A stretch of 64,000 nt of DNA from Dacryopinax spathularia (taxonomy: Eukaryota > Basidiomycota > Dacrymycetes > Dacrymycetales > Dacrymycetaceae). The stretch covers positions 372,001 through 436,000 of the forward strand of contig JBBPFI010000013.1 in NCBI GenBank assembly GCA_037974965.1, in the 5' to 3' direction. The position numbers and the translations under genes were made by a program. The number at the start of each line of letters is the position of its first letter. Position 1 is the stretch's first letter. Below the pieces are notes generated by a model, which was not told the DNA's origin, did not search any database, and saw nothing but the letters and a program-made list of their open reading frames with translations. Positions 20,845 through 41,186 of this stretch are shown in pieces.

Positions 20845-21179
20845 GATGGATCAAAGGCTTGGCAAGATTGACACCCCAAGAGAGGAATAGAACACGGTTA
20901 AACCGGCTGCGGAAGGACAAAGGGTGCTTTGGGGATTTTCGGGTGACTGTCTCGGTCCTGTGGACCTTCTAGATGTTGCTCGGATGATCTCAAGTATTGC
21001 AAGGTGTGCGGGGAGCGATCTCTCACTCGGCCTTTATCTAGCGACTTCAGGAGGAGGTGTAAGTAAAGAACAGTCTGCAGACCACCACCCCGCCGCAATT
21101 TCAGCCCTAAAGAATCCAGTGTGATGTACAGTTATCCTTCTGGCTGCCTTCACCGTTCCTAGGTACCTCACACCATACC
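20845..21179. other. K3 upstream flank, up to the transposon
   Basis: Promoter region of K3. The terminal inverted repeat of the large element begins at about 21,180, some 335 bases from the K3 start. Nothing else recognised. Confidence 0.5.
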
Positions 21180-21335
21180 AAACTTTCAGCCACCTCAGTC
21201 GATTTGGATCATCTAAGTCGCTCTGAGAGCGTCGATCTGGATTATCTGAGGCGCTTTCAGAGCGAGAGTAGAGCGATAATCTTAAGAACCAGGTAGGATA
21301 ATCGAAGGATTATCCTGGATAATCGAAGGATTATC
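21180..21335 (+). repeat. Left terminal inverted repeat and subterminal repeats
   Basis: Starts AAACTTTCAGCCACCTCAGT and ends near CGCTTTCAGAGCG at 21264. It matches the reverse complement of the right end at about three quarters of positions. From 21,270 to 21,335 there are five copies of GATAATC or its complement, two of them inside the repeated unit GGATAATCGAAGGATTATC. Such subterminal arrays usually bind the transposase. Confidence 0.82.
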
Positions 21336-21461
21336 TCGGCATAGGGGAAACCATCATAGCATTCACAATCCGAGCAATATCGTACAAGGAGGGCAGACAG
21401 GAAACGCAGGCTATCGATATTGAGAGCGAGAAAAGGAGCCTGACAATCCATTTGCGCAGCT

Positions 21462-24241
21462 TCAATCTTCCACCGGTTCGTAAGAGGCTCCTTCGTTTTC
21501 CTCTTCGCTATCTTCGGGAGTCTCTTCCTCTTCATCGCCACCTTCTTCCTCGTCTTCATCGTCCTTGCGTTGCGCGGCGATGACATGGTACTGAACCTCG
21601 GAGCGATTCCAGCCATTCTTCGTCTACCGTTAGCGTGTCAGAATGCGTATCATAGCAACGGAGACGGGCTTACCGTCCAGTGTCGTGTGCGCGCTTGAAC
21701 TGTGATCCTCCAGACAGTCTTGGAAGCGATCAATCCCTTGAGACGTTCCTCATAGACTCCGAAGCGGGAATTCTACAAAACGTTTTGAGCCCGGGGAAAG
21801 AGCAGAAGAAGCTTCCATACCTTCTCCTTCACCAGCTACTCGGGCGCCTCCCCGATGGTCTCGTCGGCAACAGGGGAGAAAGCGATGAGATCCATGATCT
21901 CGCCCTTCTTCAGACCCATGTTGAGCTTTAGCTTGTAGCTGGGTTGATACTTAATCTTCCGCCACTCAAGACAATGTGATTGCTTACCACCAGCGCTTTT
22001 CACCATCGTGGTCCTCCGGAGGAGTCCGATGAGCCTCAATAGGACAAACACCTCCGGAATTGGCCACACTCTTGTTGCAGTCAGGATGAACACAGGCTTC
22101 GTAGACAGTGTCCTCGTGGATGCCGGTAAAAGGACCTTCCATGTAGAAAGTGTCCACCCTCGAGCCATGTCCAAGATCTGAATTGAGCACCTCCCAGGTG
22201 GTGAGGGCAGTGGGGAAACGAGGTTTCTCGCCAGCAGTCAAACCACTAGAAGCGCTATAACCAGAGGAGATATGAACAAAGCCAGCTTGCTTCGGCAGGT
22301 GCCTAAACCTGTTTGACTTTGGTAAGAGTGCGTACGTCAGATAAGAGGACATTGAAACGAACCATCTCAGGAGAGCCTGCATGCCATCGATCTTCGGTTT
22401 CAGGTCGATCTCCGTGAAGTCATACACATTCAGGCTGACGCCGCCAAATGATGATACGACAGCCTTCTTTAAAAGCAGAGCGTTTCCAGGTTGGCCCTGA
22501 AAAGAAGCGGCTCTGTCCTTCCACAGGACAACGCGGACGACGTGCAAGGATTGGTCGACAAGCTGAAGCTTGAGACGCTTCCGTTCGCTGGTCTCGTCCT
22601 CAGATGAATCGTCGTCGTTATCTCCTTCGCCAGCCACCCGATTCTTGGCGGACATAGAAGACAACTGACCGACGTTGAGGACGACACCTACAACATTCAC
22701 TTTCGACTTTGCTTCCATGCCACGCAAGAGCTTGATGACCGTCAGGGGGGAGGATATGTCTTTGAGGACGTGGTCCTTCGGAGGAGTCAGAACATCTCCT
22801 TCGAAAGAGCGAGTCACGTACGTCTGAGAAGAAAGCTATCCGCGTTTCGCTACTCAGATTGAGCTGCAAAGGCAGCTGTTTCTCCGTTTTAAATCGGTCT
22901 TGCACGGGGCCAACCTTGGCGTTGCTAATCTTCAGAACCTACCAAGCAGTCAGAACGTTGAACAAACAAAGTCGCCGCATATACTTACGGTCCCTACTTT
23001 CCCCTCCCTTCTTATAGCGTTGATACCAGCATCATCGAAGAAAACAGCACGCATGAGGTTCTATGGCGAGTCAGCACGGAAGCCCAAAACCTAAGACGAG
23101 CCTACTGTACGTACGTTTGCTTTGTCACGGAGCTTCAACACGAGGACTCGGGCGCTGCCCCTCTCCCCAGCATAGGCGTAAGGGCCGATCATCTCCTCGA
23201 TCCGGACAACGGCGAACCAGGGGTCATTGACAAGGGTGAGCTGGCTCAAGAAAACTTCTTTATCATCATTGCTCTCCTGCATCTCGCTGGCCCTGATGAA
23301 GCCGTCCGAGATTTTTTTCTTAGAAAAGACGCTAGAGCTCTGCGTGGCAGGTGCCAACTTCGGAGCCGGGGTCGCGGGCGTTTCCACGTTTCCTGGAGGG
23401 ACAACTCCCGACGAGCCGGCGGATGCCTTCTTTTTAGTCAAGTCTGGATAGGTGCATTTAGGCGTGGTCGTACAACTGTGGGCCTGATCTCTCACCTCTG
23501 TCTTTCTTCTTGTCGGTCTTATTCTTGTTCTTGTTATCCCCTTTCTTCGCTTTGGGATCCTCTTTCGAGCCACTGCCCCCGGCGTTCGCTTGAGGAGCGG
23601 CGCCGTTGACGGCGGTGTTGGTAACCTCCTGAAGAGGCACATGTCCCTCATTCGTCGTGCCTTGCGCCCCTGTGGTAGTTCCGGTGGCCGATGCGGAGGG
23701 TAACCCGTTGTCGGGGAGGCCCGACGATCCATGCGCAAGAGGAGGCGCTTCGTGCTTCTCCGTGACCAGCGCGGGGACACGAAGGCTGATCTCGACGGGC
23801 GTCCCCATGATAGATGTCGGCTCGCCGACCGGCTGCGCCTTCATCACGGTGATTATACTGCCTAGATTCAGCAGAGGAAAGAGATGTATGCGCGCTGATA
23901 CGTACCGGAAGCCCCCGGAAACCTTCCTACGGACGGTCTCTATCTTCAGGAACGATCCCTCCGTGATCTCCTTCTTCGCGAGGTAGTGATTGAGCTTGGG
24001 CGACAGCATTACGAGGACGGCGTATTTTCCATCGGAGAGCGTAAGGCTACGAAAGTTGGTCTAGTGTCTGTGGTGAAACAAGGAAGGACGTGACTCACCC
24101 GTACTCATCGCGCTTCGTGACAGCCTGACCGTCTCCCGTCCCAGGGTAGATGTCAAGAACTTGCATCGTGAGGTCTTCATATTCAGTATCATAGGAGTTG
24201 ATGAGAGAAGCACATCCGTCGTTGGTCAGAGAGGGAGACAT
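21462..24241 (-). CDS. RPA1-like ssDNA-binding protein, in-frame stop near C-terminus
   Basis: Divergent homologue of the large subunit of replication protein A. The N-terminal OB fold (MQVLDIYPG; LTLSDGKYAVLVMLSPKLNHY; ITEGSFLKIE) is followed by a low-complexity Lys/Asn linker. Central DBD-A/B-like folds include VRIEEM and VNVVGVVLNVGQLS, then LQLVDQSLHVVRVVLWKD and SLNVYDFTEIDLKP. A DBD-C-like zinc ribbon has C-x4-C (ACVHPDCNK) and GGVCPIEAHR, where the fourth Cys position is Glu. After splicing (RW|CYKLKL) the frame meets TAG at 21836-21838, following ADETIGEAPE. Two more conserved exons (NSRFGVYEERLKGLIASKTV; KNGWNRSEVQYHVIAAQ) lie beyond and end at TGA 21462. Translation as read therefore ends at 21836. 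It is the first gene inside the transposon. RPA1 identity is good; activity is uncertain. Confidence 0.78.
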
Positions 24242-24446
24242 ATTGACGTAGTGCGGGGAGAGAGGAGAGAAGAGAGAAGAGAAGAGTTCGTAGTAGCCCT
24301 CGTTATAAGTAGGTAGGGCCCCTATTGTGACGGAGGCAGATTCGGAAGTATTGACTCACGACGCCTGGCGCCCAGTCTGAAGGAGCGCCCTTGTCGACAT
24401 CGTCCTCGTCCACCTCTCTCTCTGCTTTCTCCTCCTGACGACTGCC

Positions 24447-25085
24447 ATGCCGCCACCGACTACCGAGACCAGATCTCAACATGCTCATGGGACCGTCGAA
24501 GATAGTAAGTTGCTTTCGGCAATGTGCGGGCGTCGCCTGTTGACCCACGTCGCAGCGCATCTCGATTTTCATCAGCGTACTCCGGTCAATGCCAGTCCGA
24601 AGGCGACGCAGCATACAACGTCCTACCAGACTCGACAGGGCCGCTCGATTCCGCTCACGCTCGGCAGGAGCGAAGGTGAAGCATCTCAGCAGTCTTGCTC
24701 TCATTCTCAAGGAGGCGCTGCCAAGAAACGCTCGGCCGACGAGATGGAGATCGATCGTCGCCCGGAAAAGAGGACGAGGCGCGAGGTGATCGACATGACG
24801 GATGACGACGAGAAGGTACGTGAGATGCACTCGCAGCCGTATAACTCTGACCTCTTCTAGATCATTATCAAAGTGGAGCCTGTCGATTTCAGTCTGCCCG
24901 AGGAGGAAGTCCACGACGTGGCGTACTGGCGGCGCGAGGCAGAGGCGTACGAAGAAGAGAGTATTGAGAAGGCGTTCCAGTTGCTGATGCTGAGGCGTCA
25001 GAACGCCGATCTCATCAGGGAGATTGGAAGGCTGCGTGTCGAGCTGGAGAATGCTCGAAGTGGAGGAAGATCTCTGGGTTCGTAG
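24447..25085 (+). CDS. Small nuclear-type protein with SIM-like and SUMO-site-like motifs and coiled coil
   Basis: Three exons (24447-24504, 24556-24815, 24861-25085) with agreeing phases give 180 residues. The middle is basic and Ser/Gln-rich with a likely nuclear signal (KKRSADEMEIDRRPEKRTRR). Then comes REVIDMTDDDEK, which fits a SUMO-interacting motif (hydrophobic V-I-x-M followed by acids). It is followed directly by IIIKVEPVDF, which contains the psi-K-x-E SUMOylation consensus IKVE. The last 60 residues are a charged coiled coil (from EAYEEESIEKAFQLL to LRVELENARS). No enzyme domain was recognised. It is divergent from the RPA1-like gene with about 200 bases between starts, so a shared promoter is possible. 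Function unknown; the SUMO reading is inference from motifs. Confidence 0.68.
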
Positions 25086-25998
25086 GAAGGACTGGTACTC
25101 TCCACTTTTCAACCACGCTATCCCTCGCACTCTCGGACTCACAAAGGACGCGGTACACAGCTCTTGTAATGCGTTATTAGGAACGTTACATACGAGATAC
25201 TACGAGTCTAATCCCAGCTGTAATCGTCTATTCCTTGCACAGTTTCTGTTCAGCAGCTGGGTCGCTCAAGTAAGGTCGCCGAGGTAGAAGAACTAAAAAA
25301 AGACGCTGGTCTCTTGGCAGAGCGTCACAGGGACAGCTACCTACTGGACTAGTAGAGCTCTCCGTAGTCCATCGTGAAGCTCGAAGTTCCAGGTTGAAAA
25401 GTAGCACAAGACGTGCGTTTTCGGCCTTTCGATTGAGTCTCGAAGCAGTTCGATTGAGCCTCGAAGCAATTCGATTGAGCCTCGGAGCAGTCTCTGTGCA
25501 GCGCATGCTTCTTCCTCGGCCATTGTTAGTTTTCCCCGTTGTAGAGACCCTTCGCAGGAAAAAAGAAGCACGGAAGAAGGCAAGTTTGAGCTTTGTGAGT
25601 GCCTCCTGAAAGTTGTGTTTCGAACTTCTGCAGGAGTTCAAGCTGTAGGGGAGTAACCCAAGGTTCAGACCGCTGTCGACTTCCTTCTGTAAAGCATCGC
25701 CTCAAAAATACTGGCCAGCGCTATGCCGTCTACTAATATTTCTGAAGCACTTTGTGAGGATCTGGCTAATTTCTGGAGCCTTTTCTCCTGAGCATGCCTG
25801 GGCATTGTAGAGGCTTAAGATAATCGTTCCTTCTCCGGATTTGCGGGGTTGCTTATGATGTCATCAATCGGAATGTACACTGTTTCGGGAAGATCGGGAG
25901 TGGCTCAGCAAAGCGATGCCGACTGGCATGTGACGCGGTAGCAAACAGCCACCTCCTGAGTTGCCACCTCATCGCTCACGGCTCTGTCTACTACCACC
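25086..25998. other. Intergenic, holds a 21-bp tandem repeat
   Basis: No gene was recognised. It contains the three-copy repeat at 25428-25490 and the upstream region of the RPA70N-like gene. Confidence 0.45.
25428..25490 (+). repeat. Three tandem copies of a 21-bp unit
   Basis: The unit TTCGATTGAGYCTCGAAGCA plus one base occurs at 25428-25448, 25449-25469 and 25470-25490 with one or two changes per copy. Because 21 is divisible by three, it also gives a periodic peptide on the minus strand, but no gene support was found for that. Confidence 0.85.
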
Positions 25999-26758
25999 AT
26001 GCTCGTTACTTTCTGCAAGGGGACCTGCTCGGCTCTCCTGAACGACGCGCTGAAGCCGACTGACAGTCGCTACGTTCAGGTTTACAGCGTTGAGCTTGTA
26101 GAGGAGGATGAAAGGGGTTGTAAGAAGTACCTGTACGTGGTATCAAAATGCAGCTGAGTATGACGCGATGGCTTAGATCTACTCAGCTTGGAGGTTACCG
26201 ACGGCTTCGAAAGCATGCCCGTGATGCTCAGCATGCGCTTGAACCCTCTCGTATCCAGTGGCAAGATAGCCTTGAACTCAGTCCTTGAAGTTGGGGCTTA
26301 CGTTCGTCGGAAGGCCAACGGAGTGCGGTACGCAACCTGCTTTCCTCACTAGTTCCTTCTTCATGCCTCTTCAGGTTCGTCATCATTCAGGCGATCAACA
26401 GCCTTGCGGTAGCTCCGCGTATAGCGCGCGATCCCGTCCCCCTCGATTTGAATGAAGATCCCGAGAAATGTCTCTCCCAGGTCGTGGAATACTTGTCAGC
26501 GAAGCAGCTCATACGGGACAATGAGCAAGTAAGGCCGCATCCGCTTTTCTATGAAATAGTCTCACGTCGACCTAGGACGCTGCTGGTGTAACCTTCGGCG
26601 ACGCTGGCCCTGCACAGCACTGTGACACGTTGTCCCAAGGCTCAACTGATCAAGGGTCTTCGGATATCTCCACAGCCGTCGACTCTGTCGGGACGGCTGC
26701 GCAGAGTGCGGATCTCTGCCAGGACCAACTAAAGGCCCAGCTTCCTTTTGCGGATTGA
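25999..26758 (+). CDS. Stand-alone RPA70N-like OB-fold protein
   Basis: Four exons. After the first intron (gtacgt... to the AG at about 26,187) the core reads TDSRYVQVYSVELVEED, CKKYLLEVTDGFESMPVMLS, LNPLVSSGKIALNSVLEV and VRRKANGVRFVIIQAINSL. This follows the order of the N-terminal domain of RPA1: strand with xVQVxSV, YxLxxxDG, the LNxLV helix, GSVLxV, and the final hydrophobic strand. The C-terminal 100 residues (from PLDLNEDPEK) are acidic and Ser/Asp-rich without a known domain. There are no DNA-binding domains A-C, so it is a single-domain adaptor-like protein of about 200 residues. RPA70N normally binds checkpoint and repair proteins. It lies 2 kb from the RPA1-like gene in the same transposon. 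The match is by pattern only, so moderate confidence. Confidence 0.62.
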
Positions 26759-26878
26759 CGAGAAGGGTACTCAGATATCTGTACAGCCGCAGTTCGATGT
26801 TCTCGTCTTTCAGCGACTCTCATCTCTAAACATCGTCTCCCTCTCAGTATACAGTTTACAGTAGCGCTTATACATCAT

Positions 26879-28691
26879 ATGTACTCAGTGAAATGCGATC
26901 GGCGTTCTGTCTCCCACAGCGATGACCGCTCCCAGGACACCCCGAGGTACCGTCTGGGTCTTGACTTATCGCATCCGCCCCACGAGCCCAAGAGGCACAC
27001 GGATGACGAGTAAGCTGGGACCCTACACAGCTCGAGATCAGAATCTATCGACTCTCCTCATCTTTCGATATCTCTCTGCTTCATATGTCCCAGCAAGCCT
27101 AAGGTGGACCAAATCTCATCTCCAACCCTTCAAACGACACTCAAAGAAAGAAAGAAGGTCATGTACCAAACCTCCGCGTACTCCATAAGGCAAACGCTGG
27201 ACGTCTCGGGACAGACTGTTCCGCCAGCGGGCCTGTTCCCTTCGACTTTGTCCTCCGCACATCCTCGGGAAGATCGCAATTTCGGGTCATGGAGTGAGGA
27301 CACACGACACGGACGAAGGAACGCGTGCATTGCGACCTACGCGCCACCATCCGCTGGTCGCCTCCCTCAAGTATCTCGCCCCAGCGACGCGGTCACCGGC
27401 TTGACTGCGCAAGCATTCCCAGCCTTCGACGTTTCACCCAGCCAAGGTGCGCCTGTCGCACACAGGCTCGCATATACCAGTACGGTGCGCCGCCGCGAAG
27501 TAAGGGAGGTCTTGGAGAGCGTTGTGCACGATTTTCTGGTGACAGTCGATGAGAGACAGGCCGGTGAGTGACAGATGCCTCTGACCCGCCAGAGCTCACC
27601 ATCTATCAGCGCTCTTCCTGATCGAAGCGATTGAGATACTCTATGTTAACGGGACGAGCCGCTTTCTGTACACCGCAGATATGCCGGCCTGGATCACTGA
27701 GCTGTTACACTCCCTCGCTGCTCTGCATACATCCCCATGCAGGGGCTGCTCAACCCATCAAAGCGTGGCACCTCTTCCTAGTCAGAGCAGCTCAGCTCAG
27801 AGCGACGCGACTATCTTCGAGTGGAACTCGGATTACGTTACTAAACAAAGGTTCTTCTCGAAAGCCGATGGTTCGACAGTCTCACTACCCGGGACGGGCA
27901 GCTATCACTTTACGGTCGCCAAAAGCATCCCCGTCGATCCTTCCCCGCCCGCTCGAGCGCTCTGGCCAGAGCGACCATCGTCCTACGTCCCTTTGAAAGC
28001 CAGCAACACACTTCTACGAAACGATTTCAATCATTGGCTTGGTAAGATATTATCACGCTTCAGTTGCGCCGCTCACAAACGTCGCCAGATACACACCTGG
28101 GAGGGCACTGTCTGTGGCGACACCTTCCGAAGGTGTTGAAGATTCAGGAGAAGATGCTCTGCGGCGTGAATCAGTATATTCCGCTTCCCGGTTCCGATGC
28201 GCAACCGTATAGATGGACGACCGAATCTCAGTGGGCGTTTAACGTTGCGATGTGGGACGGAACACTCCAATTCAAGGGCTGGACGCGACGTAAGCTGATA
28301 CACGCAGTTGATGACTTGAGTCTAACTGTTGTCAGAGGAAGCTGCACTCTATGACCCTCCCCTCGTCAAGTGCACAAACGGCGTGCTCTTCCACGTCTCA
28401 GAGATTGCGGCACTCTTCGGCATCGATTTTTCGGAGCCGGTGGACCTGGCTGTGCCAGTCCCCTTGCCTCCCCTTTCCTGGCGAGAGGTTTTAGCTGCCG
28501 CAGAAGCTAACGAGGCTAGGGACGTTGCTGAGATCGATACCGAGCGACGATGTCGGAGGCGAGCTCGGATGCTGCATGACGACACCGTGGAGGGCGGGGA
28601 CTCGGGGGAGTTTAGCGGACAGGAGCACCCTGTACAAAGGAGTCGGCGGGGGACCGATCCAGGCTCTCTCTGGCAGGACGGAAATTCTTAG
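26879..28691 (+). CDS. Unrecognised multi-exon cargo protein
   Basis: Five exons with consistent phases; introns begin at 27010, 27564, about 28041 and about 28291. ATG 26879 is chosen because it gives the phase needed to enter exon 2, whereas ATG 26922 does not. The product is about 470 residues. The basic N-terminus is followed by a Ser/Pro/Thr-rich part, then a helical hydrophobic stretch (ALFLIEAIEILYVNG, WITELLHSLAALH). An aromatic-rich block (HLGGHCLWRHLPKVLK, YRWTTESQWAFNVAMWDG) and a conserved-looking ending (CTNGVLFHVSEIAALFGIDF) follow. The last 60 residues are charged. No domain was recognised. It lies 120 bases after the RPA70N-like gene in the same direction. It is likely a fungal family that travels with the element. 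Confidence 0.6.
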
Positions 28692-29443
28692 ATCACGGCT
28701 ACATCTCCCTATCATCTTTTCTTGTACGGATCGACGCCTCTGTGACATGTACCACTGCTATAGATTTATTTCCATCTCTTCCTTTCCTATCGACGATCCC
28801 GATGTTGAGAGACTAGCACGTTCAGCAACGTTTGTAGGTTCCTGTTTTAGGTGATGAATGGCGAGACCGTCTCGAAGATGTACGAGGAGCAGGGATCCGA
28901 TACGGGCTCCTGTAACGTCCGATCAGACCCGTTCTCGATACGAAGGGAGTGCACACTTCAGCTTGTATGCGTTTCTTTGGATCGCCACTGCTTTCCTCGC
29001 GCTACATGCGGAGGCCGATAATCAGATGGGTTGGCTCGAACTTACGTCGGCGTACTTACCTATTTTGTCTGATCCTCTTACGTGTCTGTTCGCCATTACC
29101 GCTATCGCGATTTGGTGTCAGCTTAGGATGCCCGACAGGGTCGCTGGAATCGACTTCCGAGGTCCCCCATAACGAGGATTGCCTCCTCGAACCCCGATCT
29201 CTTAAGGGCGAAGCTATGAACCAGACATCAGAAACACCTAGATTAGCCTCAGTCACTCACCCGACCCACAACCGAAGTCACTGTGCCCGCTTCCTTCGCC
29301 TTCATCGTCTAGCTCAACATCCGACGTGGGCGGAGGCGATGTCAACGGGCCGTCCAGAAGGTGGGAGTTCCTCAACGGCGGCGAGGAGAAGTCCGACGTC
29401 AACCGGCGGTTAGTAGTGTTGCCCTGTTACTGTGTGAGCTCGT
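28692..29443. other. Intergenic within transposon
   Basis: An open frame of 104 codons at 28858-29172 has a hydrophobic middle, but no start context, homologue or splice pattern supports it. I see no convincing gene. Confidence 0.4.
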
Positions 29444-30856
29444 TCAAAGACAAAGGTGTAAAATACTGACAGTGCTCCTTCGCACGCTGTCTCTATGAGA
29501 TCTCTCCGGCGTTGGTCTCGGCGTGCTAGCTCCGCTGGGACGAGACGTTGCGCAGCGTCCGGCAGCGTCTCCGAAAAACGTGTACTCCTCCTGATACTCG
29601 GATTGCTGCTTGAAGACGTAGTCATAGGTCCGGAGTAGGTCGACGAAGGACAGGTCTTCCGGGTTCTCGAACACGAGTGACGAGGGAAGCCGTCCCGGCT
29701 GGATGATTGCTGACGACCATTGAAACGGTTGTTCTCCTTTTTCATGAGCTGACTTGGAGTCAGCGACGCACGCGCAACAGATCTTACCTTACCATGTAGG
29801 TGGCTGAAGAAAGTAGCCAGTACTGCGGCAATCTCCAGTCGATTCCACGCAGGGTCAAGCGCTGGCAGAATCGGACAGTCATTGCTATATCGTCGCAGTG
29901 TAGGGAGCACCCTTGTAGATGCATCCCGCTCCTCGCAAGGCACTACAAGGGTGAATCAAGGAACTCGAACGCATCTCCGACGGGCGATCGACGTACCTGC
30001 TCCTTTGATGAACTCCTTCCAAAGCTGATGGACCTCTGTCTCATAGCGCGCGTGGAACTCTGAGAAGCACAAACCAGCCGACGTTTTGCCCGAGTCGACG
30101 CTGCTAGAGATTAGCGTACTCTTTCAGAAAGACTTTTTGAACGCACCGAGTCATTGTGCGTGCTCCGGTCGGATCGAGACCACCGGCAAGTGTGAAAAAG
30201 ACCCAGCCCGTGCGAGCGTGCATCGACTTGTGGAAGGCAAGGATAGTGCCATACACTTGTTCAGACGACCTACATAAGCGACATCAGGTTCTAGACCGAA
30301 GAGCAGAGATGCTGCCTACCATCGTGAACCACCCTGTGCTCTCGACGCCGTTCCAGCTTCGATCCGCTCGTTTTCTGCTGACTCCAGATACTGAGCACGT
30401 CGATTTTCCGACAACTGCGAATTCCACTGATGCTTCAGAAACTCTGGACGAGCTTGGAAGGTCGTCTTGTCGACACCGACGGCATACTCCGCTAGTTGCT
30501 CTCGAAAGTTCGGGATGTCGGCCGCCATAAGCTCCCTCGCTCGATTGGTAAGAGGACAAGCCTTTTCTTGCGGACGGGGAAGTTTCAGAACAGGATCGCC
30601 GATATGGCCATGGTTGTTTTTCAGAAACACGTATACCTGCTGTGAAGGTCTGAGCTGAGAAACGGAAGAGGAAACGAGGACGAACTTCCGGGACACTGTC
30701 TCTATCTCGCTTCGGCGTGTACTCAGGAAACCGCGCTTGGAAGGCCGACGCCACCTCTTGAGCGTACTTACGACCTTGTCTCCTGCCCGCGTGCTCACCG
30801 AAGGAAACCAGGCATTCCAGGAGCCAGGCTCTTTGTTCTGGATTGAAGTTAACCAT
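29444..30856 (-). CDS. Unrecognised cargo protein, conserved-looking multi-exon gene
   Basis: Begins MVNFNPEQRAWLLECLVSF and continues with a basic helical part (YAQEVASAFQARFPEYTPKR). After an intron comes LKLPRPQEKACPLTNRA, then FREQLAEYAVGVDKTTFQA and SENRRAQYLESAENERI. Further exons give ILAFHKSMHARTGWVFFTLA, CFSEFHARYETEVHQLWKEF and LEIAAVLATFFSHLHG. The last exon (about 29,444-29,740) gives FENPEDLSFVDLLRTYDYVF. The motif of Trp-Val-Phe-Phe followed by a Gly-Gly turn, and the Phe/Tyr-rich ending, look like a structured domain, but I cannot name it. Exon joints at the 3' end are uncertain. It is the only minus-strand cargo gene besides the RPA1-like gene and diverges from the transposase. 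Confidence 0.5.
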
Positions 30857-31505: not shown

Positions 31506-34500
31506 ATGGTCGCCTCCAGTCGAAAGCGAAGGCATCCGCACATCTCCCTTGTCGATGAAGGACCTGACCAGCTACAACGGAGGACGTTGCGGCCCACGAC
31601 AGCTCCAACGGTGAACCTGGCAGCGAGCGAGATCATCGAGGAACCCCGACGTCCGATCCCTCCTCTCATCTCAGAGAAAGCCACGCTGCCCCCACAGACG
31701 CCAAGGACGAGCAAGCGCAGGCAGGTAGGGGATGTTACACTGGAGTGTGGGACAGTAGGCTGAGGATACGATTCCAGGTCGCATCCGATTACTCGGAGAA
31801 ATACCTCGCTCGACGTCCGGCGATCCTCGAGGAATGCCTTCGGCACTATGGGCGGTCGCCCTCGCTACTCTGTAATCGCTGTGGAGAGCCGCGAGAACCA
31901 TTGACGCGCTGTAGAGACTGTTTTCGAGCTCCAGAGCTGTGTTCTAGCTGCCAAGTCGGTGTGCATACTCACATTCCCTTCCACTGGGTCGATGTATGGA
32001 CGGGAAGTTTCTTTGGCCGCCATTCGCTCAGCAAACTGGGACTTCTCATCCAGCTCGGCCATTCTGGGCTCGCGTGTCCTCATGCTGGATCGTCGCCATC
32101 CTTGTCTTTCGTCGTTGTGCACGCGAACGGGATTCATAACGTCTCACTCTCTTTCTGTGGCTGCGTCGGTAGGGCGGAACGTTACATCCAGCTCCTACAA
32201 GCTCAACTCTTCCCCGTAACGTTCAACTCGCCGAAGACAGCTTTCACCTTCTCCGTTCTCAAGGACTTTCATTTGCACACGCTCTGTTCCAAGAAGTCCG
32301 CGTACGACTACTTTGCCAAGCTTGTCAGGCAGACCAACGATATCCTGCCGTCTGCCGCGAATGATCGCTACCGGGAGCTCCTCCGCGTCAGTCGTGTCTG
32401 GATGGATCTGGAGAACTGTCGATGCTCTGGGCAAGCTCATGGACTTGGACGTTGGCTTCCTTCCTACGCCGGTAGTCGAATACGCAGTCCTCTCTGCCCA
32501 GCCTGTCCGCAGCCTGGAGTCAACGTAACGTTGCAAGAGCTTCGAGCAAGCGACCCTGCTAAGCCGTACGCCTTAGTCCACCTCATTAATGCCGTACACT
32601 TCTGATGTGAGGTAGGCATCTCGTCGCTTTGTACTTGGGTGGAGACGGGAACTTCAGCCTATCGGCCAAAAAGAAAGCGATCGATCCCGACGATGTCCCA
32701 TTGAATGATGGCGAGGGTTTCTTTCCTAATCTGGGTCAATTCGAGAAGTACATTCTATCTAACGAGGATTTCAAGCTTGTGAGTTGCCACTCTTTCTTAC
32801 TATTCCGCTAACGTCTCCTGGCAGCCTCAGACGTGCAGCGGTTTCAAAACGTCTATGCTATTCCAGGGGAGTTTGGGCTGCCGATCCTCAGGAGTTTACT
32901 CTTGGAGTTGCCTGCGTCATAGTCTCTATCGTCCTGGGGGGACGGTAGACCTCCAAGTAGGAGAGCGGTCAGTCCTCTCGTTTAGATGATTGGATGGACT
33001 CGGACATGCTTACCCCGACGTGCAGCTTTTCAAATGTAGACTACGCATTTGCGGGCGCCATAACCGGCGCCGAGTCACTTCCTGTGCTATTCCTATCTTA
33101 CGATCTCGCCTGTATGTGGTCTCCTCGATGGAGAGAGCGAATGGGCGCCCGCTTCCCGCACCTCGTCTCGCTCTGGGACCGCATAACGTTTGTTGTGCCA
33201 AAAATGCACGAATATGCTCACCGAGAGAAGTGCCGCTACTCTTTCTCTCTGTCATGGAAAAAAGGGGCCGCGCAGGTTGATGGAGAGGGAGTGGAACGGA
33301 CGTGGGCGGAACACAACCAGCTAGGAGGGAGTACGAAGGAGATGAATCCGGGTCATCAACGAGACTGTCTCGAGAGCCATTTCACAGACTGGAATTGGAA
33401 GAAACAAAGAGACATCGGTAAGCGTTGCAATCTCTCCGTTGTTGGCCGCCTGGCGTCTGATCCGTGCAGTTCCCCATCTCTGTCGCAGAATGTTATCAGC
33501 CAAAACTCTACTTGAACAGTGCGCTGCTCACTATGACGCTCTATCTTCGACGTTTGGGCCGCATTGCGTGCAACAATGGCGTTCGCATGAGGAGTACGTC
33601 GAGCAGAGTGATGGAACATTTCGAAGCGCGTATCGATTCCCGGACAGCACTCGTACGGGTCTCTTCAGGCGCTAGCAATCTCCTCTGGGCACTGACATGG
33701 TCTCGCAGTGCCCAGTCAACAACAGGTCGTTGATAGCATGAGGGACGAAGAACACGCTGTGGAGAGGCTGATGATGATCGTGTCTGATAGCGTTGACAGG
33801 GTGAGCTCGGTCACCTTCATTCAGCTGGGTGTCACGTTACAAGAACATCAGTAAGCTGTTTGGGTGGGAAGCGAGGCGCTCGCTCAAGCTTTCTCAGGTT
33901 GTTGGTGCAGAAGAAAATCGAAGGCCTGGAAGAAGCTCGAGGAGATGCGTGTACGCCACGGGAGATTGAAGACCTTCGTGCTACTCTTCTCCCTCAACTG
34001 GAGACGTGGCGAGTTCTTCAACTCCGCGAGATGCCATGCCTGTCTACGGGAAATCTGCTCTGCCTCCTTGACGGCAGTAACGGCTCAGAGCCTGAGCGAG
34101 AACCACTGGGTTTACCTTCTTCGTTTGACCTGCAAGCACGACGTGCTCTGAAGTTGGAACATCTTGGCTCGATCGAACTCACCCTCAGAATGGCGCAAGC
34201 GGACGAAGCGATCAGTAGAATGGTGGAGGCACTCAAGGTTCAGCAGGTCTATCGCGAGAAAGTCCGCAGCAGTGCCTCCGCCTCTGGCATGAAGACCCGC
34301 GCTCGCACCACTATGCAACTTCAGGCTACGATCGTTAAACGATATGCGGATACTTATCGCAGGGCAAGGATTGCTATGCTGTCACTCGGTCTATCCTGCG
34401 ATCACGACAAGTATCGAGACCTACTGGATACCGACCTATTGCTTGGACCCTTCGGCATAGGTGATCGTTTGAGCGGCAGGTCTCGTCCTCAACCATGGTT

Positions 34501-34887
34501 TCATGCACTTCGGGTATCTTCAATGCCGCGAGACGAGCATGTGCGGGCTTCCTGGAGCGAGGCAGGTACGTAGTATCACCCTTCGACGACTATGCATGTG
34601 AACGTTCTGCAGTAGATGCAGTTACTTGGTGGCGAGCGTTCGCTGCGTGGCAACGCGCACAGGAAGAAGTTGAGCTTCTGGAGGCCGAGATGCGTCGCGC
34701 TATACGTTTCTTCGAATTCTATCGTGCTGTTTGGAACGTGGCAGCAGATGAGAAGAACTACGGGACGGACAACACGGGATGGGCGGCTTATGCGTTGAAA
34801 CAAGCCGAGGTCTTTTCCTTGATGGCCGGGCAGGCGCGGGCTTCCTTCTCAATCTTTCTGAAGACCAACCACATTTGTACATCATGA
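31506..34887 (+). CDS. KDZ transposase with CxC2-like cysteine cluster
   Basis: DNA transposase of the Kyakuja-Dileera-Zisupton class, about 950-1,000 residues in about nine exons. The basic N-terminus (MVASSRKRRHPH) is followed by the CxC2-like cluster: LLCNRCGEPREPLTRCRDCF, ELCSSCQ, HIPFHWVDVWTGSFF, then FCGCVG and CPACPQPG. The catalytic RNase H-like region has LGGDGNFSL, YRPGGTVDLQVGER, NVDYAF and LSYDLACMW. It continues with VPKMHEYAHREKCRYSFS, DGEGVERTWAEHNQLGGST and CLESHFTDWNWKK. The acidic residues of these motifs are those expected of the family. A C-terminal coiled-coil part (LLVQKKIEGLEEARGDA) ends at TGA 34885-34887. No stop or frame break was seen, so the protein looks complete and possibly active. 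It lies in the middle of the 20-kb element and should act on the terminal repeats. Confidence 0.92.
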
Positions 34888-36063
34888 ACTAGTACCGTAC
34901 GCACGTTCTTGCTTACATGCCTGAACTCCGAGTGTTTGCACAGTCTGTGCGCTCCGCGAGTCGTCTGCGGAGTATCTCCCGCCCTTCGTTCTCCTGCAGC
35001 TTCCGATTGCCTCGTCTCATCATACGATACGTGGACCGCCAATCAACTGTCGATCAGTCACCGTCGAACACCGGAGACAAGTCAAGATCCGGTGCATCGA
35101 CCGGGCAGCCGTAATGTACGGGCACCGTTATTGCAGTTGTCGCCTCCCGAGTGCGGGCTTGGCCTTCTATCCGTGATCTTCTTCTACTCGTCGTCACTGC
35201 CGAGGGATGGGACATGCCCACGTAACTCGCAGCAACGACCAAGACGTTGATGATCTGTACAGCATGGACTGCCTTGCTCGGGATACAAGTAAAGATATCT
35301 TTCAGAACATTCCCCAAGAAGGCAACGGCCTCAGTTATTGCCGTCTTCGAGGATATCCGTAGCGCTGGGTGAAGAAGGCTTCGCCTTGCCTCGGCCTGGC
35401 GACCGGACAGCGGAGAGCTTCCGCAGCTTTCTTGCTACGTAGTCGTGACTATCAGAGAGTCCGAACGAAGAGTTGAACGCCTCCGCCCCTCCTCCGATTA
35501 GCCGATTTCAGGTTCTGAGAAGGGACGCGGAACAGTTATCGCCGTTATTGCCGTTGTTGCCGTTATCGCAGAAGCTGATCAAGGTGCGGATCCATCATTT
35601 GGGGCAGGGTCTAGCCAGCGTCTGAAGCTGCTAAGCTGGCTTTTCAAGTGCACATAGCTCCCATCAACGTTCTATTTTGCTGTTCGACTCCCTGCCCGCC
35701 AGTCGGATGATCGCCCTCGAGTGGGCCAGACATCGCGGCCAGGCAGGATCAGACTTCCAACGCACTGCGGTTGCCAGGAGTCTTCGATCTCATCTCTTAC
35801 TCTCCCCATCAGCACGACTCGTTCGGCCGAGCGCACGGTGTCACATTTGGATGGCGATGGATGCGTCAGCTTGAGGGCATGAGCACTTGATCGCTCGTCT
35901 CTTTCGTCGTAGACCTGTGAGCCTTTAAAAAGGGGAGGTGCTAACGTGCATGAGTGAGTACTTCATTCCGCTCAGCTCGCAGCCCTCGCTCCACTCGTTT
36001 CCACGTCTGCGCTGCTCAGTCATTCGTTACTCTCCCACGTTCCTTTCACAAGACCTCCGCCAC
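34888..36063. other. Intergenic within transposon with short trinucleotide-type repeats
   Basis: At about 35,535-35,572 is a run of GTTATCGCC/GTTATTGCC units. No gene was recognised; the 3' flank of the transposase and the promoter of the next gene must be here. Confidence 0.45.
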
Positions 36064-37194
36064 ATGTCTCCTGTTCCTCCCGTCCTATATCGAGCTGCTC
36101 GCGAAGACAAAGTATGCAGGACCTGTGGGAGCGGAATCCATCCTAGGATCATGGTAGCGTCATCTCCACTCAATAAGGGACGTTCGTTTCAAGTTGTAAG
36201 TTGCTTCCTCGACGATCGCAGCCGCACGACTGACTGATCACCATATACATGCAGTGTAACGGCGAGATCGGAGGCGTTGCACACTGGGCCAGTTGGAGGG
36301 CCGACGTACCGTGGAGGTGCGCGGCGTCCGCACCTCCTCAGTATCCCCGCTTGGCCGCCGACAACGAGCGCGTTTCAGTCTTGTTTCCTGCGACCGCCGC
36401 TTTTGCTATTCACTGCTCCAACCCATCATGCTTAAAGATGGGGAATCGACACTGCCCTTTCTTGGCATGCATAAATTGCTGTCCTGGTTGCAAACGTCCC
36501 GGCCACGACAAGTTTCGATCATTGACGAGCTCCTCTCCCTTTCCTTCTTCTCCAACCACCTCGCGCGCCCCTTCCCTGTCTCCCCCCCGTATGAGTGTCT
36601 CACAGAAGAGGGAGCTCACACCCCGCCTCAAGAAGGAGGGCCCGGTGATCAAAAGGGGGCTGAGAAGCCCGATCAACTTGACTTCGGCGAATCCTGGGCG
36701 TTTGACCAGAGGAGCCACGGTTATCTTCTGGCTCTCTGTATGAGTTATCATCTACCTGTGTGACGCATCTAACTCTCGAACAGGCGTTTGTGAAGCCAGT
36801 CGAATGGACTGTACCCAGTGACACCGACTTCAATCCGCTCAATGACGAGAAGGTCCTACGCGAGCTGTCTCTACTGGGAGGCACCGAAGTGCAGTATTTT
36901 CAGCGGGACCTGTGCTCTTGGCTCGACGTAGAAAGGGTAGACTCCTTTTCTCTACCGGAGGGTTTGATTCTCCTGCTGAGAGCAGGAGATAACGTAGTCC
37001 GCGATGCTGCCGGGAAGGAGATCTGCCTCGAGTATGAGGGTCTCGTCACGTTTCTGGATAAGCATCCTCAGGACGATTTCGTGGGTTGGCCGAGCCGAAG
37101 TGAACTACAAGGCAAGGTTTTCAGCAGCTCTCCTCTGTGTATTGCTCTTTCTAATCATTCTGTAGAACGGAAATGGAAAGGGGCGAAACGCTAG
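36064..37194 (+). CDS. GRF-like zinc-finger protein
   Basis: Exon 1 (from ATG 36064) gives VCRTCGSGIHPRIM and NKGRSFQV. After an intron comes CNGEIGGVAHWASWRA. This fits the GRF zinc finger layout: Cys-x2-Cys, a GRxF stretch, then Cys and a final Trp. A second Cys-rich patch (HCSNPSCLKMGNRHCPFLAC followed by INCCPGCKRPGH) lies further on. After a Ser/Pro-rich basic region (RELTPRLKKEGPVIKRGL) the next exon begins AFVKPVEWTVPSDTDFNPL and ends KWKGAKR at TAG 37192-37194. GRF fingers bind single-stranded nucleic acid in topoisomerases and nucleases. An open frame at 37,320-37,498 ending in EVIDLTE could be a further exon if splicing avoids the TAG. Cargo of the transposon; role inferred only from the finger. 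Confidence 0.58.
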
Positions 37195-38934
37195 GGACGC
37201 GTGCTGGGACCCAAGAACGAGAACGCCCCGGGAGCTGATCGCGAATGTTCGTCCAGCTCCATTGATGCAGTTGGGATCTCGCTGATTCCTAGATGGTGGA
37301 ATAGCTCCAGTCCTGCGTGACGAAGTCTGTCCTCCGTCTTCACAACTGCGCGCTCTCAGGCAAACGAATGACGTTCAGGAGGACTACACCGTCAGATCCC
37401 TCAAACGCAAGCGTGGTTCTTTCGATCTTGGCGCCCCGCGCCTGAGAAAGAAGATGCTAATTCCGCACGACGTGGAAGTCATCGATCTCACGGAATGAAA
37501 GCTTCTTCGCCAAAAACATCTTCTGCTCGCTTCTCACTTCCCACTTCAGAATGCATCTCGGGGTCCCTGACCCGTTACATGTTCTTCATCTGATGACGAC
37601 ACGTGCTCTACGAGCTGGTCGCTGTTTCTACGCTTCATGCATCTCCGGAACTGTCTCCATTTTGCCCAAGTTCTGTCTGAGCACAGATCTTCCATTCTTT
37701 TACACTTACAGATGATTTTAATAAAATTTGCAGTTTTCCGAAGTCGCTATGTCTTCGCGTACTTTCGCCGTGGCTGTGCGGCCTGCCTGCGGGAGTAGAT
37801 GGCGTGAGCGTTCAGCCACGCGTTTGGGTGGACACGTTCTCTCTGGCCTTTCCTCGTCGTCGAATTCCTTCGACCATCTGCAACTCAAAATCCGACATCG
37901 CACTATTACTGCGCTCCTACTTCCTGCACCAGCTGACGTTGACTGAACCTGCTCGTTTCAATGTGAATTCTGCTGAATCTCCTGCCGACCTACTGGGACC
38001 CCGGTGCAAACGAGTCAGTGCGGAATTGATAACGAACGGAGACTCATGGGCCTCGATGTTACCGTGCGCAGGGCTGAAAGTGGGTGTGGCCGAGGGGTGA
38101 TCCGCAACCTGAATCGGCTGCTGGATGGGCAGAACGCACGAGAAGTCGTAGGAGTCGGCGAGTTCTTCATCGTCCACCTCAGTTGCTACCGTTCTAACCT
38201 GCCTTCTTTCAGGTCATGCCTGGGAGTCTAGAACCTGTCTGTACCCAGATACGAGTATTGCTCGGAATGAGCATCGAATCCATCAAACATCAAACATCCT
38301 TGATTACTGCCGTCCTGTCCGCATCCATCCCACTATCCGCCACTAAGTCTCGCCGGTGGCTTCCACAATCCCATCGCACGGGAAGCCGAACATGCCGAAG
38401 AAGAACGTGCTCAAGCCCGAGCTAGGAGGCTGAGTGCCGAGCTGAATCTTACGTAGGAAGGTCGAGAGACAGAACACTAGAAATGCTGGGCTCGCCTTAA
38501 TCTCCTCGACGGAGTGAACTACTTCACTGAAACTCTGGTAACGTTGTATCCAATGAGCAGGTCACTTCTTACTCAAGCGTTCCCCCTAGAATCCATCGGG
38601 CCAAGATGGAGCGAGGAGGAAGTATCTCACGCTCGATCTGTGAGCTAGAGGAACGTCCCTGTCTCTTGGGCGAACAACCCTAACTCGAGCGAATGGGTCG
38701 ATCGGGTTGGGCAGTTCTTCGAGTGGGTGGCTGTGAAGAAAGTGCGAATGCATCCGCCCGACCGCGCCGACCCTCGTCTCGGCGAGCTCTGTCCCCTCCC
38801 AGCTCTCCGCTCTCTCTCAACGTTTCCACTGCCGCTCGGTCTTCTGTGTTAACCAGGTGAGTTGGCCTTGAAAACAACTGCGAGGTGCTATCTTCGTGCT
38901 GACTTACTTCTCTTCTAGGTCTCGGTCACTCAAG
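37195..38934. other. Intergenic within transposon, possible gene traces
   Basis: An open frame ending in EVIDLTE (37,320-37,498) may belong to the preceding gene. A 98-codon frame at 37804-38100 has no recognisable motif. A 5' UTR intron of the next gene runs from the donor at 38857 to the acceptor at 38918. Nothing else is supported. Confidence 0.4.
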
Positions 38935-39682
38935 ATGTCGAACGCTGTGCCTGCCGCCTTCAATTTCGGTCTCGGTATTGGTTCTAATATGAACAGCTCG
39001 ACCAACGCGACGGCCGCCGTCCCGACCGCCCCGGATAACATTACGGGGATGGACGCTGAGATCAGCGAACTAACGAGGCTGGTCCAGGAACGTCGTGCCG
39101 AACGTCAAGCAGCAGATCGTGCGCTCGCAGCCGCCAAGGCTCGCGTCTCGCATGCGATGGCAGACCTCAACACCTTCAAGCGCGAGAACCTGAACTCGCC
39201 CTCGGACCTCTACGCTACCGCGATCGCAGAGTTGGAAGCGGGGATTATGGGTAATTTCGACGCTCTCGGAGAGGCGCGTGCGATCTGGCTGGAGGCAACG
39301 ACAGCTTTTCGAGATGCGGAGGATGACCTCAGGCAGGCACAAGGTACGCTTTTGTCCGCTTTGACTCGATAGACAAAAACGCCGATACTCGCCTTCCTAG
39401 CTGATCGTCGTGCGACGATGAACAATGCTGCGCCTGCTGGAACGTTTGGTGCGTCCTGACGACCCGTCGAGATAGGCTCGCGCTGACATCTTCGTAGGCA
39501 CTCCCGCTCCGCAAGCCTCGACGTACCCTCCTCCAGCTGTCCCGGGCGTACAAGCTCAGAACTCCTTCAACGGGAATCGGCTGACCATCCATAACCACAA
39601 CAACGCCCCTGCGTCGTCCTTCGACTTCATCGGCCTGATCAAGACGGCGATTCGTATTGTATCGTGCGGTCATTTCTTCTAG
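38935..39682 (+). CDS. Coiled-coil cargo protein, copy 1
   Basis: Three coding exons with matching phases (introns near 39,343-39,400 and 39,450-39,498) and a 5' UTR intron (38857-38918). The protein is about 210 residues. The N-terminus has a Gly-rich segment (FNFGLGIGS) followed by an Asn/Thr/Ala-rich stretch. A long charged coiled coil follows, from DAEISELTRLVQERRAERQA to FRDAEDDLRQAQ. After a Pro-rich linker come NSFNGNRLTIHNHN and SFDFIGLIKTAIRIVSCGHF, a short hydrophobic end that may be an amphipathic helix. The gene at 40082 has the same order of parts, so the two are tandem paralogues. No known family recognised; the conserved Asn-Gly-Asn strand and hydrophobic tail suggest a self-assembly or membrane role, which is speculation. 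Confidence 0.68.
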
Positions 39683-40081
39683 GTTGGGGGAGAAGCGGAG
39701 GACGAATGGTTGAAGCACGGCCTGGTGATAGTCGAGGTACGTTAGCTGCTCTTATGGAACGTTCTTCAGCTAACGTTTCGCCGGATAGTCATAATGAAGA
39801 TACTACGTGAACTAGCTACGACGATAATACGACCGCTTTCCATCCCTTTGTTGACGTTCCATCTCACTGAAAGTGTCCGTCGCCCCCTAATCTAAGATAG
39901 TCTTGTCTCGCCTTCCTCGTCGTTGATCTCCCCAGATTGACAACGCCATTCACAAGTCCTCTCCTGCCAGACCCTGGTTCCAGGTTCACTCGTTCGACTC
40001 GGATCACGAGAGATCAAGTGAGTCGTGCTTCTAAACGTTTGTCTCAAACTCTCTCACTATCCTCTTCAGCTGTAATCGAAG
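39683..40081. other. Spacer between coiled-coil paralogues
   Basis: Holds the 5' UTR intron of the next gene (donor at 40018, acceptor ending 40069). No gene. Confidence 0.5.
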
Positions 40082-40813
40082 ATGTCGAGCAATCCGCCTA
40101 CCGCCCTGAATCTCGTTCTTGGTATCGGGTCGACCATCACCGCAACCACCAACGCCAACGCGAATCCTTCTGCTCTTGGGTCGCTCAGCAACTTGGTGGC
40201 GCTCAATGCTGCCGTAGTACAGAGTCGAGCCATTCTGGATGCTGTTGGTGTCGAACGTCGAGCTGTCGAACACGATCTCGAAGAGGCGAAGGCCAAGCTC
40301 TCATACGCTGTTGAAGACCTCAACCACTTCAAACGATTGAACGACGGCTCCAGGGCCTCTCGTGAACGACTTGCACAAGCGGAGGTGGACCAAGCTGCGG
40401 TGTACAAAGGCATCGTAGAGGCTAGGAGGCGTTGGCTGGAGGTGCAACGCCGTTATAGAGATGCAGAGGACGGGTATAGGATGGCTCGTGGTGCGCCCAT
40501 CCACTCTTCTTATCCGTCAGACACTGACTCCTCCCAGCTGAGCGTCTCGCCGCCACGGCTCAAGTCAACCAGGCCCCGTTTGGTACGCCTGCTCTTCTCA
40601 GGCGCTCGAACCGTGACTGACGATCGCACAGGGGGGCATACATCTCAGCATACAGCCTACCCGCCTCAGCCCCATCCGATCGTACAAGTGCAGGACTCAC
40701 TCAACGGCAATGTCCTCAACGTCAACGTCAATCCGGCACCTTTCGACTTATTAGGGGCGCTCAAGAAGTTCATTAACTTCGTGACCTTGGGACGTTTCTG
40801 CGGGGGGAGTTAG
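40082..40813 (+). CDS. Coiled-coil cargo protein, copy 2
   Basis: Uninterrupted frame of 243 residues, paralogue of 38935-39682. N-terminal LNLVLGIGSTITATTNANAN matches the Gly-rich and Asn/Thr-rich start of copy 1. The coiled coil (SRAILDAVGVERRAVEHDLE through YRDAEDGYRMAR) aligns with it along its length. The C-terminus has VQDSLNGNVLNVNVNPAP and FDLLGALKKFINFVTLGRF, the same Asn-Gly-Asn strand plus hydrophobic tail. A Ser/Arg-rich linker longer than in copy 1 lies between and replaces its intron region. It too has a 5' UTR intron. It is the last gene before the right terminal repeat. Confidence 0.7.
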   Translation: MSSNPPTALNLVLGIGSTITATTNANANPSALGSLSNLVALNAAVVQSRAILDAVGVERRAVEHDLEEAKAKLSYAVEDLNHFKRLNDGSRASRERLAQAEVDQAAVYKGIVEARRRWLEVQRRYRDAEDGYRMARGAPIHSSYPSDTDSSQLSVSPPRLKSTRPRLVRLLFSGARTVTDDRTGGHTSQHTAYPPQPHPIVQVQDSLNGNVLNVNVNPAPFDLLGALKKFINFVTLGRFCGGS

Positions 40814-41027
40814 ATTCGAGGTTGTGAGCGAACGTTGAGGACGAAACGAGCTCCAGGTGCGCAAGCTTGTTCCTCATTAGTGATCTGCGTTCTTATTCGG
40901 TCTTAGATAGTATACATTCCCTGCTTCTCCTCGTGTCAGTTGTGTGCACAGAATCGAACCTCATAATCAGATTATATGCGGGCCGAGAAGGCCTTCCCTC
41001 ACAGCCGACGATTGCTCTGAATGTCCG

Positions 41028-41186
41028 AGATAATCGCGAGATAATCGTGGATTATCTGAAGATAATCGGTTCCTGGACTCGCCGATTATCCTCGACCGTA
41101 CGCTCTAAAGCGGCCTGGGATTATCCGATTCGACGGTCTCAGAGCCGCTCGGATGATCTGAGGCGACTGAAGTATCTGAAACTTTA
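41028..41186 (-). repeat. Right terminal inverted repeat and subterminal repeats
   Basis: The complement of 41186-41101 reads TAAAGTTTCAGATACTTCAG and continues through GCTCTGAGA and CCGTCGA, ending GCTTTAGAGCG. It aligns with the left end almost without gaps. Inside it, 41,028-41,100 has six copies of GATAATC/GATTATC. Spacing and sequence mirror the left end. Confidence 0.82.

Follow-up and report, generated by a model that had tools for sequence, protein, structure and literature searches.

The 20-kb stretch described here, which lies in a window of 64,000 nucleotides from Dacryopinax spathularia (the whole stretch of DNA analyzed), is almost certainly a mobile multigene unit, judging from its sequence. 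Very likely it is a complete KDZ-class DNA transposon, with ends nearest to those of Kyakuja, that moves as a conserved set of about nine genes. The element may also be mobile at present. We read it as a fixed multigene KDZ element and not as a transposase with chance passengers because the order of the core genes is kept in five units, and because selection has been purifying even though the three fully read copies are just 57 to 69% identical to one another.

The ends had been annotated initially as an inverted repeat of about 85 bp. The inverted pair stands (21180-21264 and 41101-41185, 85 nt, 73% complementary) and tops the repeat list of the window, but its limits are not the true ends. 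In each arm the outermost 7 bases belong to a target duplication, and thus the element proper runs from 21187 to 41178 (19,992 bp), with the perfect 7-bp duplication on both sides. A duplicated target site, suggested earlier as something to look for in long reads, is visible in the assembly itself. The borders are as follows.

21180..21186, no strand: left copy of the target-site duplication, AAACTTT, read from the sequence
21187..21335, plus strand: left terminal inverted repeat (CAGCCACCTCAGTCG...), with seven GATNATC sites and a 21-bp tandem repeat at its inner end
41029..41178, minus strand: right terminal inverted repeat (CAGATACTTCAGTCG... on the minus strand), with a mirrored array of seven GATNATC sites
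41179..41185, no strand: right copy of the target-site duplication, AAACTTT, read from the sequence

The two termini of the window copy agree at 56 of their first 78 positions, compared with a best of 43 matching positions anywhere in the window when the end was shuffled 200 times. By the same shuffle comparison, a weak inverted match at 17799-17876 was at chance level and was set aside. The matching subterminal arrays that had been noticed as GATAATC were borne out in the form GATNATC. The motif occurs 42 times in the window, seven times within 21187-21335 and seven times within 41029-41158, at offsets mirrored between the ends (20, 53, 88, 110/111, 121/122, 131/132, and 142/143; those on the right were calculated by hand from the site positions). 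The exact pattern of two GATAATC spaced by seven bases gave no match.

A genome search with the ends, proposed in the initial annotation, recovered further paired copies. The 29.2-Mb genome holds the window unit and four more full-length units, each on a different contig: 19,992 bp in the window (contig C13), 20,358 bp on C5, 18,825 bp on C15, 19,056 bp on C8, and 18,874 bp on C9. The C8 and C9 lengths derive from the end positions; the interiors of these two were read in part and are otherwise known through matches. Moreover, all five have paired ends and an exact 7-bp duplication, and the five duplications differ in sequence (AAACTTT, TCTTTGG, CATTCTG, GCGCACA, and TGTTGAC). Every left end starts with CAGCC and every right end with CAGAT, giving CAG..CTG termini throughout, and left and right ends agree at 44 to 61 of the first 78 positions. 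The left end of the window copy and the C5 end at 1638154-1638312 share 92% identity. When A is also permitted at the sixth base, GATNATC sits at offsets 20 and 53 in all 12 ends compared, including the two of a short element on C7. Ends paired at 18.8 to 20.4 kb around a common gene content in five units support the proposal that all 20 kb move together. A search for an empty site in the same genome, made with the two flanks of the window copy joined, matched only their own two places.

A comparative gene finder gave 33 models, of which 11 were used (one each for B, C, D, E, G, H, and I, two for the halves of F, and two for A, whose tail is a piece of its own); the remaining 22 were left out, being mostly short or antisense to a retained model, and some of those kept were recut by hand. 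The element thus contains a transposase and eight other gene models, in keeping with an earlier estimate of at least seven. The genes are listed below.

21462..24241, minus strand: gene A, RPA70-like, with an N-terminal domain, OB folds, and the start of the C domain; exons below 21984 are uncertain
24522..25085, plus strand: gene B, a short protein whose C-terminal 74 codons are conserved, as compared in the three fully read copies
25999..26925, plus strand: gene C, a stand-alone RPA70 N-terminal-domain protein; model reliable to 26528
27161..28615, plus strand: gene D, about 360 aa, no assigned family (gene model)
29155..30856, minus strand: gene E, no assigned family; 3' exons less certain, and cut by hand at 29155, where the model continued into the antisense of D
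31506..34887, plus strand: gene F, KDZ transposase with a CxC2 cluster, 990 aa in 9 exons
36064..37498, plus strand: gene G, a cysteine-rich protein, GRF-like by eye (gene model)
38935..39682, plus strand: gene H, a paralogue of gene I (window repeat family D4, 36%)
40076..40813, plus strand: gene I, a single open frame of 245 aa, preferred to a longer spliced model

The initial annotation called the transposase complete, and indeed the spliced model has no internal stop and matches Pfam KDZ (PF18758, 7e-31) and CxC2 (PF18803, 2e-35) on its two halves. The transposase blocks DGNF, YDLAC, and DGEGVER are found in all five units, with one residue altered in the C5 copy. The RPA-like pair, related to the single-strand-DNA-binding protein that the cell itself has, was likewise confirmed, as gene A matches Pfam Rep-A_N (6e-7) and REPA_OB_2 (6e-12) and the PDB structure of RPA70 8rk2_A (E 1.5e-15), and gene C matches Rep-A_N (7e-8) and, by profile, PDB RPA70N (1.4e-4). 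None of B, D, E, G, H, and I had a significant Pfam hit. A GRF-like finger had been proposed and is visible by eye in gene G, yet none of three copies gave a Pfam match up to E 10, and no PDB match was meaningful. Genes H and I had been described as coiled-coil paralogues; their paralogy holds, and the coiled coil comes down to a nonsignificant Tropomyosin match (E 0.068). For gene D, PDB matches were nonsignificant only, and two of its relatives outside the units gave nothing above the Pfam cutoff. Gene E had no Pfam match in the two copies scanned and no PDB match. Tandem kinase-like paralogues (repeat families D1 to D3 and D5) flank the window copy, outside the element ends.

Genes A, D, E, F, and G keep an identical order and orientation in all five units, and C and I were each detected in three of the five. 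Queries with E and C (35 matches) and with G and I (21 matches) found nothing beyond the five units, where all 56 matches at E 0.01 fall. Genes A to G are under purifying selection in the three fully read copies: pN/pS is 0.23/0.27 for the transposase and lies between 0.22 and 0.46 for the other six (A to E and G). Constraint on H and I is weak (0.41 to 0.61). The gene E alignment leaves out the C5 copy, whose projected model has an in-frame stop, and the gene D projections from C5 and C15 were out of frame and were left out. When projected on the window exons, the C5 copy has four stops in the transposase and one in E, and the C15 copy has one in A and three in I; thus, some copies need not be intact. 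Individual exons sometimes depart from the overall identity ranking of the copies. The genes had been termed cargo, a label that is misleading because a core gene set is shared among deeply diverged copies.

The element has what marks a KDZ transposon, namely, a KDZ domain with an associated CxC cluster and, in all five units, paired termini and a target-site duplication. KDZ elements are described, in the portions of the sources available to us, as a transposase sometimes accompanied by a TET/JBP gene. According to the accessible part of one report, Kyakuja-1_LB and -2_LB have 7-bp target duplications and CA..TG termini, Zisupton and Dileera have an 8-bp duplication instead of the 7 bp of Kyakuja, and the two Laccaria Kyakuja families carry TET/JBP and lack inverted repeats (PMC12730594). 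Our element resembles Kyakuja in its KDZ transposase, 7-bp duplication, and CA..TG ends (here CAG..CTG in five units). It differs in having inverted repeats and a nine-gene set with RPA70 and in showing no TET/JBP match; the four such matches in the genome were all under the cutoff, and none lay within the five units. Lack of inverted repeats may be a trait of the two Laccaria families and not of the Kyakuja class. As inverted repeats are present here, we call the element Kyakuja-like and not a Kyakuja. Cryptococcus KDZ1 to KDZ3, as far as the excerpted source goes, share a KDZ transposase with a cysteine cluster and inverted repeats, and their insertions have been observed; they differ in being about 9 to 11 kb, with inverted repeats of 139 to 241 bp, CxC1 where ours has CxC2, and duplications of 8 bp (KDZ1) or 4 to 8 bp (KDZ2 and KDZ3) (PMC12810828).

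An RPA homologue carried by a DNA transposon recalls the Helitrons. Helitrons use a Rep/helicase and are not known to make a target duplication. In the section consulted of the Mothra paper, plant Helitrons are eukaryotic DNA transposons with an RPA homologue (PMC4683698), but they rely on a recombinase/helicase where our element has a KDZ transposase, inverted repeats, and 7-bp duplications; Pfam found no helicase among the gene models and five further element open reading frames (ORFs). The Starships of Pezizomycotina are also large fungal elements carrying many genes, in the available part of PMC12134995, but have a tyrosine recombinase and reach about 700 kb with accessory genes, in contrast to a KDZ transposase and a shared core here. 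No tyrosine-recombinase captain was matched by Pfam in the gene models and the five ORFs. A comparable multigene KDZ element was not found in the literature searched, a scope that left the founding 2014 KDZ paper outside.

How the element might move can be sketched. The KDZ (RNase H-like) transposase would bind GATNATC sites at both ends and pair a CAGCC left end with a CAGAT right end. It would then cut at the CAG/CTG borders and join the element to a target whose two strands had been cut 7 bases apart, which would give the 7-bp duplication. Three of the element's proteins, the RPA70-like A, the stand-alone RPA70N-like C, and the cysteine-rich G, may work on single-stranded DNA while a unit this large transposes, or may direct the host's repair or replication factors. 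That the accessory genes handle single-stranded DNA is a tentative suggestion. A self-equipped transposon, one that supplies RPA70 itself, along with an RPA70N acting as decoy or recruiter and a zinc protein, and that needs all of these to move through a prolonged single-strand or replication-coupled intermediate instead of ordinary cut-and-paste, seems unlikely.

Other explanations account for the gene set differently. Perhaps the RPA genes and zinc protein replicate an extrachromosomal form and the KDZ transposase serves as its integrase, in a replicative or virus-like element comparable to the Polinton type. Polintons/Mavericks encode a protein-primed DNA polymerase, a capsid, and an ATPase. 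The common core, the 19- to 20-kb size, and the nucleic-acid-binding genes would suit such an element, but no DNA polymerase, capsid, or packaging ATPase was matched by Pfam among the five further ORFs or the models, six of which gave no significant hit of any kind, and we consider it improbable. Alternatively, an ordinary KDZ transposon might have picked up chance host passengers as variable, Starship-style cargo, with only the transposase essential. Genes D and A have weak relatives elsewhere: of 32 matches each, 14 for D and 10 for A fall outside the units, while the other 18 of D lie in the five units and A is matched in each of them. The patchy detection of C and I also fits. Against chance passengers, the transposase and four more genes stand in one order and orientation across five units that have diverged deeply, nothing else in the genome matches E or G at E 0.01, and A to G are under purifying selection, so that this too is improbable. 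Finally, a host gene cluster might have been duplicated near a KDZ element by chance, without being mobile. The tandem kinase-like paralogues around the window copy indicate that local duplication happens here, but they lie beyond the ends, and the shared block is bounded exactly by the ends on five different contigs. As the exact 7-bp duplications also differ in sequence, a nonmobile host cluster is in our view refuted by the target-site duplications and has next to no probability.

A conserved multigene transposon thus remains the preferred reading, and a KDZ unit of about nine genes, with a core that five diverged units share and selection holds, suggests that a large DNA transposon of a fungus can act as a small genome equipped with single-strand-DNA proteins of its own. 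The five-unit family, with its defined ends, target duplications, and gene-less relatives, is ready material that makes the need of such a transposon for its own RPA directly testable. The gene-less relatives bear on the initial annotation as well, which held ends occurring alone, or at other distances without the genes, to speak against a unit. Such ends do occur. The element at C7:452285-452998 is 714 bp long, with one end of each type, no genes, and a duplication matching at only 5 of 7 bases (read by eye); its interior was checked for tRNA-like sequence, and none was found. Perfect end matches at C3:516384 and C7:30437 have no partner end, and on C8 there is also a short relative in which one end is doubled. 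As these exist beside five full units and look like nonautonomous relatives, we do not count them as a refutation.

The transposon of the window is not a solitary copy. The initial annotation had proposed paired inverted ends for a 20-kb unit, and indeed these ends are real, exceed chance, and are flanked on the outside by a perfect 7-bp duplication, AAACTTT, which sets the bounds of the element at 21187-41178 (19,992 bp). The window corresponds to C13:372001-436000 of a 29.2-Mb genome in 24 contigs; gene structure marks the DNA as fungal, probably from a mushroom-forming basidiomycete. When the genome was searched with each end, a second pair was found on contig C5. The DNA of C5 and C15 showed colinear similarity to the window copy across the unit. 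The proteins of the transposase, the RPA70-like gene and gene D, used as queries, added sets on C8 and C9, whose ends were then located by matching the outermost 15 bases. That pattern had 15 perfect matches: nine are ends of the five units, four belong to a pair of short elements, on C7 and C8, and two are unpaired (C3:516384 and C7:30437). The tenth unit end, the left end on C9, departs from the pattern at one base. With up to one mismatch allowed there were 74 matches versus 41 for a reversed control, and thus many one-mismatch matches are due to chance. Moreover, an exact 7-bp target duplication was found at all five units, and among lengths of 1 to 12, 7 alone was exact in each. We conclude that the element is a KDZ transposon carrying several genes, and that the genome contains five full-length units of it.

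Full-length units of the element
C13 (window copy), 19,992 bp
C5:1617955-1638312, 20,358 bp
C15:354585-373409, 18,825 bp
C8:1124573-1143628, 19,056 bp
C9:151564-170437, 18,874 bp

Gene models were built with a comparative gene finder from three copies in full (C13, C5 and C15).

Genes of the element, left to right
Gene A, minus strand, RPA70-like (Pfam Rep-A_N and REPA_OB_2)
Gene B, plus strand
Gene C, plus strand, RPA70N-like (Pfam Rep-A_N)
Gene D, plus strand
Gene E, minus strand
Gene F, plus strand, KDZ transposase (Pfam CxC2 and KDZ on its two halves)
Gene G, plus strand, cysteine-rich
Genes H and I, plus strand, paralogues of each other

The RPA-like pair named in the initial annotation is borne out by genes A and C: besides the Pfam domains, residues 6-540 of gene A match a solved RPA70 structure (E 1.5e-15), and the gene C profile matches the RPA70 N domain (1.4e-4). 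The transposase is complete, as had been claimed, with a model of 990 aa, no stop, and both Pfam domains. Blocks DGNF, YDLAC and DGEGVER, which we take to be the KDZ catalytic motifs, are present in the transposases of all five units, with one residue differing in the C5 copy. The genome contains 52 KDZ domain matches. The window transposase matched each of the other four units with a summed score of at least 899 bits, but of 25 other KDZ loci, 12 matched at no more than 45 bits and 13 did not match. The five transposases are thus set apart from these loci.

A core of the other genes is likewise shared. With genes E and C as query (E 0.01), 35 of 35 genome matches fell inside the five units, as did 21 of 21 with G and I. 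Genes E and G are present in every unit, and C and I were found at that threshold in C13, C5 and C15 only. For gene A, 22 of 32 genome matches lay in units, and for gene D, 18 of 32; the outside matches are weak (about 25 to 37% identity), and among them no A match lies near a D match. By summed F scores, C5 is closest to the window copy overall, then C15, with C8 and C9 last. Projected protein identities to the window for C5/C15 were 0.66/0.55 for A, 0.68/0.52 for C, 0.75/0.63 for D, 0.74/0.66 for E and 0.68/0.59 for G. Single exons break the ranking, examples being a stretch in gene A and some in gene E. On the whole, the ranking fits common descent of the unit and would also be compatible with exchange.

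Outside the units, C9:702701-704300 (locus L061) and C5:1929701-1931400 (L060) are distantly related to gene D, at about 30% identity. A Pfam scan gave neither a match above cut-off, and they constitute a family without assigned function. Gene A matches at C1:1078165, C4:720442 and C7:13383 are equal in score, identity and query range and perhaps mark another repeated element bearing an RPA-like gene.

The lineages of the element are old. Whole-element DNA identity is 69% between window and C5, 57% between window and C15, and 58% between C5 and C15. In most genes, synonymous sites have changed to a high degree or to saturation (gene I against C5 excepted), which argues for the age. The pN/pS ratio was 0.22-0.46 for A, B, C, D, E and G, 0.23/0.27 for F, and 0.41-0.61 for H and I. 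Against the C5 copy, F has identities of 0.83/0.87/0.54 at codon positions 1/2/3, and its introns and three spacers 0.57-0.62. Some stops in the projected C5 and C15 models may reflect decay or alignment error. To judge by the exact target duplications, the insertions now in place are probably younger than the lineages.

The ends stand out. Between window and C5, identity is 92% for the first 159 bases and again for 39829-41178, gene I included, whereas most long aligned blocks between are about 68 to 74% identical. The patches of about 92% identity span 21187-21400 and 39829-41178 of the window, in two units that share about 68% overall. In 50-base windows, the end patches mostly score 0.84-1.00 (minimum 0.80) and their neighbors mostly 0.50-0.86, two gap-filled windows aside. 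The contrast points to recent exchange or conversion of ends between two old lineages, and we read the patches as probable recombination between elements. In all five units, CAGCC opens the left end and CAGAT the right, and so the ends are related yet separate in identity. Each window end carries seven GATNATC sites at mirrored offsets (20, 53, 88, 110/111, 121/122, 131/132 and 142/143), several spacings being near whole helix turns; in the left end, a 33-bp and a 21-bp tandem repeat bear sites. Offsets 20 and 53 recur, with some letter variation, in all 12 ends compared (two from a short element), and the sites are putative transposase sites.

Two short elements have ends of the same family. 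C7:452285-452998 (L015; 714 bp) is gene-less, with one left-type and one right-type family end, a long inverted repeat, and a flanking duplication in which five of seven bases agree by eye; it is likely a non-autonomous relative. The other, related element, at about C8:1107550-1108236 (L018-L019), lies some 16 kb away from the full-length unit on that contig and has two successive family ends in its right part (1108149 and 1108236), as if an end had been duplicated or inserted beside another.

How the element might work is suggested by its genes. Its KDZ transposase, the enzymatic core, is an ordinary one; what is unusual is the equipment of a full RPA70 and a separate RPA70N. In cells, the RPA70 N domain recruits repair and checkpoint proteins. 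Thus, the RPA70-like proteins may coat the element's own single strands or, alternatively, may redirect host factors. The interest lies in the RPA-bearing gene set common to the units, its proposed function being read from sequence.

In published descriptions, Laccaria Kyakuja elements have 7-bp duplications and CA..TG termini, and Zisupton and Dileera have 8-bp duplications (Kojima 2025, PMC12730594); Cryptococcus KDZ1-3 are about 9 to 11 kb (PMC12810828); and in Pleurotus, CxC2 precedes intact KDZ transposons (PMC7641404). A Marasmius genome paper reports KDZ inverted repeats as characterized, with details in its supplement (PMC8290104), and the elements of a Marasmius transposon library, type unstated, reach about 42 kb (PMC9674265). 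Among the publications listed on KDZ cargo, giant transposons and the RPA/OB fold, the portions available describe no multigene RPA-bearing KDZ element; the founding KDZ paper (Iyer et al. 2014) may already mention one.

In the window, the element lies between two paralogues, minus-strand kinase-like genes at 18058-20850 and 41301-42185 that are related by DNA repeats; the right-hand gene has a Pkinase match below cut-off (E 0.004). We note that a sequence of about 300 bp at 42862-43162, with 31-nt inverted ends that are 94% complementary, may be a small element of the foldback or MITE type.
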